Below are positions 875-51,039 of a DNA stretch of 64,000 nucleotides, piece after piece. The notes beneath the pieces were generated by a model that had not been told where the DNA came from, did no database searches, and saw nothing but the letters and a program-made list of their open reading frames with translations. A program made the position numbers and the translations under genes. Source of the DNA: an uncultured Ardenticatenia bacterium (GTDB taxonomy: Bacteria > Chloroflexota > Anaerolineae > 4572-78 > NAK82); assembly GCA_937127125.1 (NCBI GenBank), contig CAKZLO010000010.1, positions 114,097-178,096 on the forward strand, in the 5' to 3' direction. Positions within the stretch are counted from its first letter, which is position 1. Every line of letters starts with the position of its first letter.

Positions 875-2788
875 ATGTTAAAGAATCTCAGGGTCTCGTC
901 CTGCACTGCTAGTCTTCCCTCGGTGGCTGCCGTCTTGCTTTTCTCTGTGTTCATATGGTTGCCATTGTTGTCACCCGCTTATTTTTTCAATGCGCACGAT
1001 GCACCTCACAGTGTCTTCTTCCTAGTCGAGTTTGACCAGACGCTGCGCGATGGTTACCTGTGGCCACGGTGGTCACCTGATTTCGCTTTCGGTTATGGTT
1101 ATCCTTTGTTTAATATCTATGCTCCATTGGCCTTTTATGCGGCGGAGTTGCTCCATCTGCTGGGGTTGAGTTTTGTTGAAGCTGTCAAAGGTGTATACGT
1201 GTTGGCCACTATTGCAGGGGGGCTGGCCATGTACGGTTTCCTGGCCCAGCTTGTAGGACCATCGGCCGGTATCTTGGGCGCAGTTGTTTATATGTGGGCT
1301 CCCTTTCATTTATTAGAGCTCTATGTTCGCAGTGCCTTCCCTGAGTATGTCGCCTTGGCGCTCCTCCCGATGACGATGTGGGCTTTCACAAACTTGGTTA
1401 TGCATCCTAACGCAAGGCGTGTGGCGTGGGCAGCGCTTGCCTATGGCTTGCTGGCATTGACACACCATGCTTCTTTGTTCACCTTCACCCCATTTCTGGC
1501 GTGCTATCTTCTGTTCCTTCTGGTGGTGAACCTTTGGACGAAGAGCAATGTAGGCGGCTGGTCGAGGGCTCAGCTTATAGATATCCTGGTAAGGCCAATG
1601 AGTAAGGTGCTGGCTGCCGCAGCCTTGGGCCTTGGGCTGGCTGCTATCTACCTGGTGCCCCTAGTAGCTGAATTGCGTTATGTGAAAGTCGAGCAGTGGA
1701 CGGCCTACAGCTATGACTACCGTCAACACTTCGTTTACCCTGCGCAGCTCTTGTCCCCGTTCTGGGGATACGGTTATTCCGGCCCTGGTTTGCAGGATGG
1801 AATGTCGTTTCAGCTGGGCGTCAGCGCAGCGAGCTTGGCTCTCTTAGGCGGATGGCTGACAATCGGCGATCTGGTGCGTAGAGGCTTGCGCCGAGTTTCT
1901 CCGGATGGGCCTGGACAAGAAAAGGTGTATGCCTACAGCTCGACGTGGCCTAAGATGATTTCGCTCTTTATGTTGGCATCCGCGTTGTCAGTCATATGGC
2001 TGATGTCCCCATCTGCAGAAGCACTCTGGAGGGCGCTCCCGATTGCCAGCTTGGTGCAATTTCCCTGGCGTCTGCTGGGGCTGTTAATCTTTATGCTATC
2101 GGTAGTAGCATCTACACTAGGGCATTCTTTCTTTGCCGGTCGCATTCAATGCAAGACTGCGGGGGGAAACCTAACAGCCGAGCAGTCACTACGGATGCAA
2201 TCAACAGTGCTTGTACCTATAGAGCTGCATATTCTGTGCTGGGTGATCGTGTTGACATCTTTTGCGTATGCTTTGCCTCAATACACGGAGGTGGAGAGTT
2301 GGCGCGAGACTCCTCAGGCAGTTGTTCGCTGGGATCGCTTTTCGCCTGCCGACCGTGTGGCAATGGTAGCAGTCACAGAGGAACAGCCCACGACCAGTCC
2401 GATGGAAGCCCAATACATGACGGGTGATCCTTTGCAAGTGGCGACTATTGTGCGGGGTGAGGGCACACTTGAGACGCTGCGCCACGGAGGAGCATCGGAC
2501 GAAGTGCGTCTGCACGCCCTTACTCCTGTTACTGTGCAGTTTTACACTTATGACTACCCGGGCTGGCAAGTAATCTTGAACGGGGTGCCCATTCCTCATC
2601 GCCACGAGGCGCCTTATGGGCTGATTACGGTGGACGTGCCTGCTGGCGAGCATCATCTGCTGTTACGTATGGGGAGCACTCCGCCACGCTTAGCTGGTGG
2701 ACTCACTAGCTTGGCCTCTGGTGCCACAATCCTGTTGTTTCTTATACGACACAGCTGGCCCCAACTATTTCGGCAACGCTATGAATGA
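875..2788 (+). CDS. Large polytopic membrane protein (6-pyruvoyl-tetrahydropterin-synthase-related / YfhO-like)
   Basis: Many TM segments, 'NAHDAPHSVFFLVEFDQTLRDGYLWPRWSPDFAFGYGYPLFNIYAPL' signature; ORF track starts at GTG 851, but ATG 875 fits better with the putative promoter at 815-843. Confidence 0.7.
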   Translation: MLKNLRVSSCTASLPSVAAVLLFSVFIWLPLLSPAYFFNAHDAPHSVFFLVEFDQTLRDGYLWPRWSPDFAFGYGYPLFNIYAPLAFYAAELLHLLGLSFVEAVKGVYVLATIAGGLAMYGFLAQLVGPSAGILGAVVYMWAPFHLLELYVRSAFPEYVALALLPMTMWAFTNLVMHPNARRVAWAALAYGLLALTHHASLFTFTPFLACYLLFLLVVNLWTKSNVGGWSRAQLIDILVRPMSKVLAAAALGLGLAAIYLVPLVAELRYVKVEQWTAYSYDYRQHFVYPAQLLSPFWGYGYSGPGLQDGMSFQLGVSAASLALLGGWLTIGDLVRRGLRRVSPDGPGQEKVYAYSSTWPKMISLFMLASALSVIWLMSPSAEALWRALPIASLVQFPWRLLGLLIFMLSVVASTLGHSFFAGRIQCKTAGGNLTAEQSLRMQSTVLVPIELHILCWVIVLTSFAYALPQYTEVESWRETPQAVVRWDRFSPADRVAMVAVTEEQPTTSPMEAQYMTGDPLQVATIVRGEGTLETLRHGGASDEVRLHALTPVTVQFYTYDYPGWQVILNGVPIPHRHEAPYGLITVDVPAGEHHLLLRMGSTPPRLAGGLTSLASGATILLFLIRHSWPQLFRQRYE

Positions 2789-5253: not shown

Positions 5254-6063
5254 TCAATGTTCTCTAAAACCAAGACGTCCCGAAATGAGCCGACCAGCCT
5301 GTCGTACAAGGTCAATGAACTCTGGCATACGTCCCGCATTCAGCCGTGTGATCGGGCCGCCAATGGAAACCGCGGCCACCACATTGCCATCGTGGTTGTG
5401 TATTGGTGCGCTGACTGCTACATAGCCATCTTCAAGTTCCTCGATCGCTGTGGCATAGCCTTGCGTCCTGATCAAGGCCATTTGCCGTTCTAGCTCCTCC
5501 AAGTCGGTAATGGTCTTATCGGTCAGGCGTTGCAGCGGTGGACGTAGACGTGCGACACGCTCCTGTGTCGGCAGGAATGCCAGGAGCAGCTTCCCAGTAG
5601 AAGTCGCATGGGCTGGATGCCGCGTGCCAATAGTCTGCCATGGTGCCAGCAAGTGACTGGCAGGGATTTCTTCTAGGATGAGCACTTGATCGTCCACCAG
5701 AACTTCCAACGTTGCAGCTTCACCTGCTGTGCATGCCAACCACTCCAGCTCACTATAGCCCGCAGAACGCAAGTCGTTGGAACGCAGCGCTCGTCCTCCC
5801 AAGGCAATGGCTTCAGGACCCAGTCGGTAGGCCCCAGTGCGCGAATCGCGCATCAGCAGGCCTTCGTCTTCCATGGCGCTTAACAGCCGGTAGGCGGTGG
5901 CCTTATTCATCTCCGCTGCACGAGCTAGATCTTTTAGCCGCCACTCAGGATGCGCATCAGTGAACATCTTGAGCAAGCGAATAGCCCGTAATACAGATTG
6001 GGTGCCAGCGAGCGCGCGCGATCGTGTCATATATTGTAACACCATCTCATATATTGAATCCAT
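5254..6063 (-). CDS. IclR family transcriptional regulator
   Basis: N-terminal wHTH 'SVLRAIRLLKMFTDAHPEWRLKDLARAAEMNKATAYRLLSAMEDEGLL' plus IclR effector domain; start may be an internal ATG (MTRSRALAG, ~6027). Confidence 0.9.
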   Translation of the reverse strand: MDSIYEMVLQYMTRSRALAGTQSVLRAIRLLKMFTDAHPEWRLKDLARAAEMNKATAYRLLSAMEDEGLLMRDSRTGAYRLGPEAIALGGRALRSNDLRSAGYSELEWLACTAGEAATLEVLVDDQVLILEEIPASHLLAPWQTIGTRHPAHATSTGKLLLAFLPTQERVARLRPPLQRLTDKTITDLEELERQMALIRTQGYATAIEELEDGYVAVSAPIHNHDGNVVAAVSIGGPITRLNAGRMPEFIDLVRQAGRLISGRLGFREH

Positions 6064-6257
6064 TTTACTCAGCTCTAAGTCCTTGTCAAGCGCGCACTCT
6101 TGCTTGCTGCGGCAATCTCTGCCAAGAAGGTGTTCGAAAACTCTCGAGTTGGTGTATCAGCTGCTCTGTCCTCCTGTGCAGATCTAATCGAGCATTAAGA
6201 AGGGAGATCCCTCAGTGTTGGTGTACTCTGATCTTGAAGCTTGCCACCTAGGTAGGG

Positions 6258-6295
6258 GTTGCATAGAATTAAAAACTATATGCCGATTGGTTTGA
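6258..6295 (+). repeat. 38-bp direct repeat, copy 1 (GTTGCATAGAATTAAAAACTATATGCCGATTGGTTTGA)
   Basis: 35/38 identical to 6333-6370, period 75 bp. Confidence 0.85.
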
Positions 6296-6332
6296 TATTA
6301 CGCCAGTTATGTATCCAAATGCGGGCGTGGTG

Positions 6333-6370
6333 GTTGTATAGAATTAAAAACTAGATGCCGATTGATTTGA
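6333..6370 (+). repeat. 38-bp direct repeat, copy 2 (GTTGTATAGAATTAAAAACTAGATGCCGATTGATTTGA)
   Basis: 35/38 identical to 6258-6295. Confidence 0.85.
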
Positions 6371-6540
6371 ATACCTGAGTTCACCAGAGGGGCGATGCGA
6401 TGTGGTGTTTGCAGCGCTAGAGCTAGTCAGCTCTGGAGATATGCTGTTCCTTCTGGAGAGAGTGGGGGATCCCTGCTAGGAGAACATGGTTTGCCCTTTC
6501 TTCAGTTGACGAATTACTTTTTTCTTGAGGAGTGAAGGGT

Positions 6541-7350
6541 ATGCACATTTCGCTGGAGAATCGAGTGGCTGTGGTGACTGGGGGTGGCCAGGGACTTGGT
6601 CAAGCCATCTGCCAACGTCTGGCACAGGAGGGATGCGATGTAGTGGTTGCCGACATAAATGCAGAGACTGCTTCTCGTACTGCCTCTGAGCTTAATGCGT
6701 ACTATAAGCAAGCGGGACAAACTAACCGGCGTGCCATCGCGATGCGCGTGGATGTGACAAACGAAGATGAAGTTGCAGCTTTGGTGGATCGGACAGTGCA
6801 AGAGTTCGGCCGGCTGGACATCTTCGTTGCCAACGCGGGTATCTTGATCTCTGGGGAGATTGATCAGTTCCCGGCTGAGAAGTGGGAAGCCGTCATCCGG
6901 GTGAACCTCATTGGTTACTTTCTGTGTGCCAAGCATGCTTGCCGGGTTATGAAGCAACAACGAAGTGGCACCATTATTCAGATCAACTCGAAATCGGGTA
7001 AGAAGGGTAGCTATAAGAATTCTGCGTACTCCGCCTCCAAGTTCGGTGGCATTGGCTTGACACAAAGTCTGGCGCTGGAAATGGCTGAATATGGTGTGCG
7101 GGTGAACGCAATTTGCCCCGGGAATCTCTTGGACTCTCCGTTGTGGGTAAGCTCTTTGTACAGTCAATACGCCAAAAAGTGGGGCATTAGTGAGGAAGAG
7201 GTGCGTCGCAAGTATCTCGAGCAGGTGCCCCTTGGACGCGGCTGCACTTATGACGATGTGTGCAATATTCTGGTTTATCTGGCGTCTGACGAAGCGAGCT
7301 ATATGACGGGGCAGGCAATTAATGTAGCCGGTGGGCAGGAGATGCACTGA
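6541..7350 (+). CDS. SDR family oxidoreductase, sorbitol-6-phosphate 2-dehydrogenase (SrlD)-like
   Basis: 'VVTGGGQGLGQAICQRL' Rossmann motif; 'IIQINSKSGKKGSYKNSAYSASKFGGIGLTQSLALEMAEYGVRVNAICPGNLLDSPLW' closely resembles SrlD. Confidence 0.85.
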   Translation: MHISLENRVAVVTGGGQGLGQAICQRLAQEGCDVVVADINAETASRTASELNAYYKQAGQTNRRAIAMRVDVTNEDEVAALVDRTVQEFGRLDIFVANAGILISGEIDQFPAEKWEAVIRVNLIGYFLCAKHACRVMKQQRSGTIIQINSKSGKKGSYKNSAYSASKFGGIGLTQSLALEMAEYGVRVNAICPGNLLDSPLWVSSLYSQYAKKWGISEEEVRRKYLEQVPLGRGCTYDDVCNILVYLASDEASYMTGQAINVAGGQEMH

Positions 7351-47384: not shown

Positions 47385-47413
47385 TTGACATACCCGAGAC
47401 TGTGTGTTATACT
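47385..47413 (+). promoter_or_regulatory. Copper-locus promoter TTGACA-17-TATACT
   Basis: Read directly; upstream of csoR. Confidence 0.75.
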
Positions 47414-47420
47414 TGAGCTA

Positions 47421-47440
47421 TACCCCCCCATGGGGGAGGG
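47421..47440. promoter_or_regulatory. Putative CsoR operator (TACCCCCCCATGGGGGAGGG)
   Basis: G/C-tract pseudo-palindrome just downstream of the -10 box, typical of CsoR sites. Confidence 0.7.
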
Positions 47441-47472
47441 GATGATATCACCCGGAATGGGAGAGACGAGCA

Positions 47473-47748
47473 GTGGACGAAATTTCCCAGGAGATCGTCA
47501 AGCGACTGAAAAGTATTGAGGGCCACGTGCGCGGTATCCAGCGTATGGTTGAGAATGGGGAATACTGTATCGACGTAGTCACTCAGGTGTTGGCGGTACA
47601 ACGCGCATTACAAAAAGTCAATAGCTTGGTGCTCGACCGTCATTTGCACACCTGTGTCAGCACTGCAATGAGCAGTCAGGATGCCGCTGAACGTGAGAAG
47701 GTGATCGCTGAAATCATGGACGTGTTTGAGGCGACTGGCAAATTATGA
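47473..47748 (+). CDS. csoR: CsoR-family copper-sensing repressor
   Basis: 'EISQEIVKRLKSIEGHVRGIQRMVENGEYCIDVVTQVLAVQRALQKVNSLVLDRHLHTCV'; C-H-C Cu(I) ligand pattern conserved; GTG start. Confidence 0.95.
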   Translation: MDEISQEIVKRLKSIEGHVRGIQRMVENGEYCIDVVTQVLAVQRALQKVNSLVLDRHLHTCVSTAMSSQDAAEREKVIAEIMDVFEATGKL

Positions 47749-47776: not shown

Positions 47777-47992
47777 ATGATCACCGAGCGTACTTTTCGA
47801 GTGCCCAATATTTCATGTGCACACTGCGTGCACACTATCGAGCGCGAGCTAGGAGAACTACCGGGTGTTGTCTCCGTGCGTGCCAACGTGGCTGACAAGC
47901 TGGTTACAGTTGAGTGGAACGACACCCTTGTCCGCTGGGAGGATATTCGCGCGTTGCTGCAAGAGATCAACTATTCACCGGAGGCTGATTAG
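47777..47992 (+). CDS. copZ: Heavy-metal-associated (HMA) domain copper chaperone
   Basis: 'TFRVPNISCAHCVHTIERELGELPGVVSVRANVADKLVTVEWND' with CAHC. Confidence 0.93.
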   Translation: MITERTFRVPNISCAHCVHTIERELGELPGVVSVRANVADKLVTVEWNDTLVRWEDIRALLQEINYSPEAD

Positions 47993-48040: not shown

Positions 48041-48280
48041 ATGGAAGCAGAGCAGGTTAAGCTAACTGGAGAATCAGAGCAAACTCGTTCGTCACGCCTT
48101 ACATGCCGAGACTGTGCAGTGGATATCGACAAACTGCTCGCCGAAGTTGAGGCGGCTGAAGAGTCTGGGGAATCTGGAGCATCTATGGATAAGGGCAGCC
48201 ACCTTGTGTTTGATATCTCACAGCTTGGTACCCGGGCGTCAGATAGTACTTCGGAGGATACCGCTGGTGGAAGGGAATAA
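48041..48280 (+). CDS. Small acidic protein with CRDC motif, possibly a degenerate HMA-related protein
   Basis: 79-aa ATG ORF filling the copZ-copA gap; '[29 protein letters not shown]'; stop lies 1 nt before the chosen copA start. Confidence 0.5.
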
Positions 48281-48281
48281 G

Positions 48282-50573
48282 GTGAGGGTGGATCTGCCGA
48301 TCGTCGGCATGACTTGCGCCAATTGCGCTGCCACGATTGAGCGCGCGCTTACACGCAGGGTGCCCGGCGTGCTGAGCGCGACGGTCAACTTGGCTACCGA
48401 AAGAGCAACGGTGGAATATGTCCCTGGACAGGTCACACGGCAAGATTTGGTGGCTGCAATCGAGCGCGCAGGCTACAAAGTATTGGAGACCGTGGAGACC
48501 GGCCAAGAAGATGCCGAACAGGCGGCACGGACAGCGGAGATGCGTGTCCAGTCGCGCAAATTTTGGGTTGGCGTTCTCTTTACGTTGCCACTCTTCGCGC
48601 TCAGCATGACGCGCGATCTGGGGGTGTTGGGACACTGGGCACACCAGGCATGGTTCAATTGGGTGCTGCTGACTTTGGCGACGCCGGTGCAGTTCTACAC
48701 GGGCTGGGATTACTATGTTGGGGCGTGGAAGGCGTTGCGCAACCGTGCCGCTAACATGGATGTATTGGTGGCTATGGGTTCTTCGGCTGCCTACCTCTAT
48801 AGCGTAACCGTGACAGTTGCATGGGCGCTAGGGCAAACCGGCTGGGGTGACCACGTTTACTTCGAGACCGCTGCGGTCATCATCACGTTGATCAAGTTGG
48901 GCAAGCTGCTTGAGGCGCGTGCCCGAGGGCGCACCAGTGCTGCCATTCGTGAATTGATGGGACTGCGCTCCAAAACGGCGCGAGTCTTGCGTGCCGGTCA
49001 GGAGCTCGAACTCCCCATCGAGCGAGTAATCGTTGGTGATCTGGTGCTGGTACGACCAGGCGAGCGGATCCCGGTGGACGGGATTGTTCTGGAAGGGCGG
49101 TCAGTAGTGGACGAAAGTATGCTCACCGGTGAGAGCTTGCCAGTGGAGAAGCAGCCGGGCGATCAGGTGGTCGGGGCGACCATCAACAAACAGGGTTACT
49201 TGAGGATTGAGGCTCGGCGGGTGGGTGCTGAGACCGTGTTGGCCCAGATCATCCGGTTGGTTCAGGAAGCACAGGGTAGCAAGGCTCCCATCCAGCGGCT
49301 CGCTGACCAGGTATCGTCTGTGTTCGTGCCTTTTGTCATTGCTGTCGGGCTGCTGACATTCCTGGTCTGGTGGTTTGTCATCGGTGCCGGCTTCACGCCA
49401 GCGCTCATCCGGTTGGTGGCTGTTTTGGTAATTTCCTGCCCATGTGCGCTCGGCCTGGCCACACCCACTGCGGTGATGGTGGGTATCGGGCGCGGTGCGA
49501 CGATGGGTATCCTGTTTCGCAACAGCGCTGCACTCGAACGTGTACAGGCGCTCAAAGTAGTGGCGTTTGATAAGACAGGCACACTCACCGTTGGCCAGCC
49601 TGCCGTAACCGACATTGTGGCAAGTGAACGAATGCGTGCTGTGTCAGAAGTGGGTCAACAGCGAAGCTATCCCTCAGATGTCGAGACACAATTGCTCTAC
49701 TTGGCTGCCTCTGCCGAGTTGGTCAGTGAACATCCTTTGGGCGAGGCAATCGTGCGCGCGGCGCGAGAGCGTGGGCTGGCACTGACCGCGCCGAAGGAGT
49801 TCGAGGCGCTCAGTGGACAGGGTATCCTCGCCCGTGTGAATGGACATACAGTTCTAGTAGGCAGCCATGGGTTCATGGCGGACCGCTCTGTCGCTCTAAA
49901 TGGCTTAGAAATCTCTGCTGAGCAACTGCAGTCCGAGGCGAAGACGGTTATGTGGGTGGCAGTGAATGGCCAAGCAGTGGGACTTATTGCCGTAGCAGAT
50001 GTGATCAAACCCAGTTCACGTGAAGCGGTGGAGCAGCTGCGTCATATGGGCCTACGGACAGTAATGATCACTGGTGACAATTGGAACGCAGCGCGAGCGG
50101 TTGCGCGTGCTGTAGGGGTTGATCGCGTGCTGGCTGAAGTGCAGCCAGATGGCAAAACTGCTGCGATCCGACACTTGCAGGAGGAAGAGAACGGTCCCGT
50201 TGCCATGGTGGGAGATGGCATAAACGACGCCCCCGCGCTGGCACAAGCTGACCTCAGCATTGCGATGGGCAGCGGTACTGACATTGCTATGGAGACGGCC
50301 GACATAACACTTATGCGCGATGACCTACGCGCCGTGTCGCAGGCGATTGCACTCAGTCGTGCGACAATGCGCATAATTAAACAAAACTTGTTCTGGGCCT
50401 TTTTCTACAATGTATTGCTGATACCGGTGGCCGCAGGAGCCTTGTACCCGCTCGCATGGCTGCCCGAAATGTTGCGTGCGTTGCACCCGGCGCTGGCTGC
50501 GTTGGCGATGGCTTTCAGCAGCGTGACAGTAGTGACCAACAGCCTGCGCCTGCGCGGCGTCCGTCTGCAGTGA
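48282..50573 (+). CDS. copA: Cu(I)-translocating P-type ATPase
   Basis: HMA '[19 protein letters not shown]', '[16 protein letters not shown]', '[11 protein letters not shown]', '[22 protein letters not shown]'; GTG start 48282 (ORF track extends upstream to 48114). Confidence 0.96.
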
Positions 50574-50640
50574 TAATCATTTAGGTGGTTCGGAGAATAG
50601 CCTCTTAAGGGTAGTTGATAATCGGTTAAGGAGGAGTAGT

Positions 50641-50901
50641 ATGTGTTGCCACAGAGAACACCTACATCACCACAGTTGTTGCCATTGCGGTTGTTGCTGC
50701 GGCCACTGCTGCGGTTGTCACAGCGGTTGTTGTGAAGGAGGCCGTTGCACTTATGAATGCTGTGAAGCAGGAGCAAGTGGATTTCGTCGTCGGTATCGGA
50801 CGCGAGCAGAACGCATCAGCGAGTTGGAGGCATATCTGGCCGATCTAAAGGCAGAGGTGCAGGCAGTTGAAGAACACCTAAAGGAGCTACGACGAGAGTA
50901 A
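50641..50901 (+). CDS. Cys/His-rich putative copper-binding miniprotein with C-terminal coiled coil
   Basis: MCCHREHLHHHSCCHCGCCCGHCCGCHSGCCEGGRCTYECC: 16 Cys + 8 His in the first 41 aa; then heptad-like helix 'AERISELEAYLADLKAEVQAVEEHLKELRRE'; RBS AAGGAGGA; 67 nt after copA stop. Confidence 0.8.
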   Translation: MCCHREHLHHHSCCHCGCCCGHCCGCHSGCCEGGRCTYECCEAGASGFRRRYRTRAERISELEAYLADLKAEVQAVEEHLKELRRE

Positions 50902-50934
50902 AAAACACTTTCGTTACGTTTGTAGGTATAGACT

Positions 50935-50978
50935 GTGCCGTGGGAGGAGGTGAGTCTCTCCGCCCACGGCACATTTTG
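50935..50978 (+). terminator. Putative terminator of the copper locus
   Basis: 10-bp stem GTGCCGTGGG...CCCACGGCAC followed by ATTTTGT. Confidence 0.65.
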
Positions 50979-51039
50979 TCTCTAATGTGGGGCATAGAGT
51001 ATATTTGTTCACTGGGCAGCTGGATAAAAGGGATGAAAG

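Follow-up and report, generated by a model that had tools for sequence, protein, structure and literature searches.

A putative metallothionein-like protein with a variable Cys/His-rich head on a conserved coiled coil, encoded in a copper operon of Chloroflexota

Introduction

The cytosolic copper buffers of Bacteria are, to our knowledge, few: MymT, the Csp proteins, and glutathione-like thiols. MymT is a mycobacterial Cu(I) binder placed under a CsoR-like repressor. Csp is cytosolic, carries many cysteines for Cu(I), and is oligomeric through its helices. The Chloroflexota are largely uncultured and include hot-spring lineages. Here, we analyse a gene from this phylum, found in a window of 64,000 nucleotides, whose small product joins a head of cysteines and histidines to a coiled-coil helix. 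We place it in its operon, follow its relatives across genomes, and compare it with these systems.

Results

A Cys/His-rich gene closes a copper operon

The gene is the last of an operon on the + strand with the order csoR, copZ, an ORF with a CxxC motif, copA, and the gene itself. The features of the locus are as follows.

47385-47413 (+): promoter of the operon, TTGACA-17-TATACT, its second hexamer preceded by TG, match of 11/12 (promoter scan; conserved in the genomes G051, G287, and G278)
47420-47443 (+): CsoR-box-like dyad ATACCCCCCCATGGGGGAGGGGAT (sequence, inverted repeat, conserved in four genomes)
47473-47748 (+): csoR, metal-sensing repressor (PF02583, E 1e-27; C-x24-H-x3-C ligand spacing)
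47777-47992 (+): copZ-like HMA copper chaperone (Pfam and NCBIfam matches)
48041-48280 (+): ORF of 79 residues with one CxxC (LTCRDC) and no family match (conserved at this place in the genus)
48282-50573 (+): copA, P1B-type copper ATPase with a GTG start at 48282 (HMA and CPC)
50630-50636 (+): Shine-Dalgarno sequence GGAGGAG (sequence; 4 nt upstream of the ATG)
50641-50901 (+): metallothionein-like gene of 86 residues, with a Cys/His-rich head (residues 1-46) and a coiled-coil helix (residues 55-85) (translation, helix model, homologues)
50641-50778 (+): variable Cys/His-rich head of 46 residues with 16 Cys and 8 His, predicted to be disordered without metal (composition; pLDDT <50 for residues 1-45)
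50779-50898 (+): conserved GFRRRYxTRAE linker and amphipathic helix with perfect a/d heptads (alignments; predicted helix 55-85)
50923-50984 (+): stable hairpin 3' of the gene, likely terminator (folding; G051 has a corresponding hairpin behind its copy)

The case for copper control of csoR-copZ-copA is convincing as far as sequence can tell. The CsoR of the window has the ligands C32, H57, and C61 in the Cu(I)-type arrangement, with the same spacing as C36/H61/C65 in CsoR of M. tuberculosis. CopA has the CPC motif. The G/C dyad is of the CsoR-box kind and lies downstream of the promoter and upstream of csoR; its C5/G4 core and the TTGACA hexamer are conserved across four genomes, and the operon is present in all three genomes of the genus. 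An earlier note on this DNA, made from the sequence alone, had proposed an inducible Cu(I) buffer or storage peptide that oligomerises through its helix, and copper control of the operon would fit this reading. The strong ribosome-binding site and the 67-nt gap between the copA stop (50571-50573) and the ATG, which it had also described, were both confirmed. We looked within this gap for a promoter proper to the gene and rejected it: the sole promoter-like site overlaps the region of the Shine-Dalgarno sequence and start, and the gap has no CsoR-box dyad. The terminator that the note had placed at the end of the locus is partly borne out, since a stable hairpin does follow the gene (about 50923-50984; folding energy -36.4 kcal/mol, mean of shuffles -19.3, z -5.95), but it has only a short T run on its 3' side and a simple terminator scan raised no flag.

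The reading frame is under selection and its head is not a chance product

The ORF translates into MCCHREHLHHHSCCHCGCCCGHCCGCHSGCCEGGRCTYECCEAGASGFRRRYRTRAERISELEAYLADLKAEVQAVEEHLKELRRE. Residues 1-41 hold 16 Cys and eight of the nine His of the protein, exactly the composition first noticed. When the 123 nt of this head were base-shuffled, none of 20,000 shuffles reached its 24 Cys+His (maximum 11), and no other stretch of 41 residues in the six frames of the window has more than 13. Chance origin of the head is thereby excluded. The 40 C-terminal codons tell the same for the rest of the gene: compared with the two congeners, 24-26 codons show synonymous and 4-5 nonsynonymous changes, with dN of 0.06-0.08 and dS saturated. 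This dominance of synonymous change in the helix codons indicates a protein-coding gene under strong purifying selection, and together with the shuffles it rules out a chance or non-coding ORF. The AlphaFold model has a single confident helix (55-85, core pLDDT >90) and leaves residues 1-45 unstructured. The amphipathic C-terminal helix described by the earlier note is thus found again, with hydrophobic residues at all its a/d positions.

The head could have arisen by expansion of CxC/CCG codon repeats and have no role with metals, the helix alone being of importance. We consider this highly improbable. The length of the head does vary strongly among species, and some distant relatives are free of cysteine, as this explanation would have it. 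Yet the Cys codons of the window gene are mixed (7 TGT and 9 TGC), so simple codon duplication does not explain the head. Moreover, the heads of its congeners have been reordered while keeping their proportion of Cys and His, and most sampled members of the family are rich in these residues, a richness that accompanies metal operons.

The gene is an accessory of the copper operon in one genus

The other two genomes of the genus, G051 and G287, encode an orthologue. The heads of the three proteins have 45, 58, and 63 residues and allow no residue-by-residue alignment. They contain 16, 19, and 22 Cys and 8-12 His, and Cys+His make up 52-53% of each. This is as expected if selection acts on the number of ligands rather than on the exact sequence. 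G051 (L095) shows the entire order csoR-copZ-CxxC ORF-copA-gene again. The G287 operon falls on two contigs that break within copA: one (L159) carries csoR-copZ-CxxC ORF and the other copA-gene. The situation is different in G278, from another genus of the same family, where csoR-copZ-copA (CopA 69% identical) is followed by unrelated DNA without the gene. Across the family, a profile search detects the gene only in the genus of the window. Hence, the gene is an accessory of the copper operon, either acquired by that genus or lost from others. That the copper operon of a sister genus exists without it counts against a role as copper buffer, even if the copper role of the gene within this genus is well supported by its context.

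The small ORF between copZ and copA forms a set of its own. It has 79-83 residues, contains LTC(R/A), has one CxxC, and matches no Pfam family. We found it in the window (48041-48280, +), at about 1150-1400 of L095, and at 1067-1318 (-) of L159. In G278, an extra N-terminal HMA domain of CopA stands in its place.

A conserved helix defines a family across Chloroflexota

Neither the protein of 86 residues nor its relatives match a Pfam or NCBIfam family above cut-off. A profile of the helix retrieved relatives both from the class (32 of 396 genomes) and from a draw of 400 genomes of the phylum (19), and the matches in public records bear titles of Anaerolineales, Anaerolineae, and Ardenticatenia MAGs. 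Searches with the protein gave no match among plasmids, no relative among viral contigs, and chance matches only among PDB sequences. The common architecture is a conserved helix of 35 residues in perfect heptads behind a variable, usually Cys/His-rich, head. The consensus of the helix is xRRYxTRAERIxxLExYLxxLxAExQAVEExLxxL, and its a/d positions are hydrophobic in 25 of the 25 aligned rows (1.00, against 0.29-0.63 in other registers), a textbook heptad that would suit oligomerisation.

Heads are less uniform. Among the 57 family matches, 40 have at least three Cys and 38 have at least 20% Cys+His, and eight have no Cys at all. The Cys-free members are a PadR-linked protein (L092), a protein whose start is uncertain and probably truncated (L108), and otherwise the remotest matches to the helix. 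Since some distant homologues lack cysteine, it is the helix that defines the family, with the head as a usual but optional part, and the shared helix would therefore have some other core role. The earlier note had named homologues without the Cys/His region as evidence against its reading. Distant Cys-free ones do exist, which counts in part against it, though the close ones keep the head.

Relatives outside the genus adjoin other regulators and transporters

The tie to copA that the earlier note had described holds in the genus, but it does not extend to the relatives outside, which adjoin PadR or ArsR regulators and arsenite, chromate, or other transporters. At least 21 loci outside the genus have a PadR gene directly upstream; an ArsR-type regulator takes this position in seven loci and a DtxR-type one in another. 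ACR3 arsenite efflux pumps adjoin the gene in two loci, one of which also has ArsC and a small thioredoxin-like protein. A chromate efflux transporter is encoded directly downstream of a family member in three loci (L037, L119, and L125). Other transport neighbours include an ArsP/SaoE-like permease, a P-type ATPase of the proton-pump class, and ABC exporters. It counts against a role as metal buffer that many members lie beside PadR with no obvious metal transporter nearby, their neighbours being ABC exporters, PIG-L deacetylases, or genes of unrelated kinds. A PIG-L family deacetylase follows the gene directly in four loci (L093, L105, L108, and L109), three of them ArsR-linked. This is the family of BshB/MshB, and a link to the synthesis of low-molecular-weight thiols is possible.

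The adjacent PadR proteins themselves have N-terminal arms with Cys and His, e.g., MCNSHHGEQGESEERCCP or MCGNGHAAGEGCRC, that precede the winged helix. The arms follow the pattern MC..HH..CCP or MC..CxC before an RGFxQP winged helix, and the genes encoding them include those at 6209-6613 (-) of L089, 95-526 (+) of L103, 6570-6998 (-) of L104, and 5454-5852 (+) of L114, among others. Two of the chromate loci (L037 and L119) have such an armed PadR upstream of the family member. Armed PadR proteins are candidates for a metal-sensing class of PadR. The number of Cys in the arm covaries with that in the partner's head (Spearman 0.70 at n=20, p about 4e-4 by permutation), although the rows are not phylogenetically independent and the value uses four arm counts read by hand, automatic counts, for which some start codons are misplaced, giving 0.41 (p 0.07).

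These neighbourhoods bear on two further explanations. First, the protein might be a metal-sensing accessory, with a helix that docks on the repressor or pump of the operon and a head in which metal alters the interaction. Several observations go in this direction: conservation is highest in the helix and not in the head, the gene stands directly behind PadR or ArsR in most loci outside the genus and often overlaps it, and the cysteines of arms and heads covary. We nevertheless find it rather unlikely, given that CsoR in the copper operon already has a complete Cu(I) site and that three genes separate csoR, at one end of the operon, from the gene, at the other. Furthermore, the same helix accompanies PadR, ArsR, DtxR, CsoR, and various transporters, and because these are unrelated, one conserved docking surface is unlikely. 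Second, the protein could be a metallochaperone or thiol-reactive carrier that supplies the adjoining pump with soft ions such as Cu(I) or As(III). Delivery of metals of the ArsD type is a known kind of function, and the protein adjoins CopA here, with close relatives next to ACR3 with ArsC and to the ArsP/SaoE-like permease. Against this, the operon already has a CopZ-type chaperone, CopA has its own HMA domain, and the head is too rich in Cys and too variable for a defined transfer site, all of which makes such a carrier quite improbable.

Discussion

Our analysis leads us to favour, with some reserve, a reading in which the protein is a small cytosolic, metal-inducible, and oligomerising metallothionein-like metal buffer with thiol and imidazole ligands, which would serve the copper operon in this genus. 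This could involve 1) release of CsoR from its operator by Cu(I), whereupon copA and the gene would be transcribed together; 2) capture of several Cu(I) ions by the disordered head in clusters of Cys, and some His; 3) assembly of two or more chains by the coiled-coil helix, which would gather many ligands; and 4) limitation of free Cu(I) by the bound pool until CopA exports it. Since members of the family attach to other operons for metals and metalloids (ArsR, PadR, ACR3, chromate efflux), the module of head and helix is probably general, with the operon setting the inducing metal.

More broadly, this module turns up again in Chloroflexota loci for the efflux of arsenic, chromate, and other substrates, often accompanied by a Cys/His-armed PadR. 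We tentatively raise the possibility that it is a modular unit of metal defence in this phylum, where the armed PadR (or ArsR) would sense the metal and the coiled-coil protein would sequester it with an evolvable head, the gene moving among copper, arsenic (arsC-acr3), chromate, and other efflux operons. If these proposals are true, a widespread family in which an unchanging coiled coil bears a fast-evolving metal-binding head would represent a novel design for the sequestration of metals, Chloroflexota would have a metallothionein of their own, and PadR proteins would be indicated as metal sensors. A layout of this kind, with the head set on a scaffold, is easily tested and could be re-engineered for metal capture.

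How does the family compare with known systems? Its nearest likenesses in databases concern the helix. DUF5320 (PF17253), to which no function is assigned, also consists of small proteins with a C-terminal coil; it does not match the protein of the window at E up to 1, and it gives weak matches in six of 38 relatives (best E 4e-6), for which the helix seems to be responsible. The coiled-coil region DUF7310 (PF23991) matches the protein of the window with E 2e-4 and 22.1 bits, below the cut-off of 40; the helix is similar and the matched region has no Cys/His head. Both are possible distant relatives of the helix, below cut-off.

Membership of the Csp family (DUF326, PF03860) was rejected: the protein has no match to it and the three genomes of the genus have none. 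The cysteines of Csp face the interior of a four-helix bundle, whereas those of our protein are outside the modelled helix. SmtA (Metallothio_Pro, PF02069) was likewise rejected, with no match at E up to 1, in agreement with the initial impression that this is not a classical SmtA. As a separate matter, each of the three genomes of the genus has a single sub-threshold match to Metallothio_Pro, which lies elsewhere (L162, 1471-1710 (+), in G000:C14; L163; L164). The L162 protein has 79 residues (CSNC...CCTGCAQGGPCTCDY) and is possibly a distinct SmtA-like protein of the same organism.

In the open-licence papers that we searched, the family is undescribed, and it is apparently a genuine metallothionein-like family in a new architecture. 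It resembles SmtA/BmtA in being small, rich in Cys, endowed with His, and expected to be induced by metals, and it resembles MymT, by description, in its small size, its many cysteines, and the Cu(I) binding and CsoR-type control that we propose, while NCBIfam returned no MymT match. Its composition fits the functional class of metallothioneins, whose members bind several d10 metal ions by clusters of Cys. It differs from SmtA/BmtA by dense CC, CxC, and CCC runs in a disordered head, in place of a zinc-finger-like fold, and from both SmtA/BmtA and MymT by the coiled-coil tail to which this head is attached.
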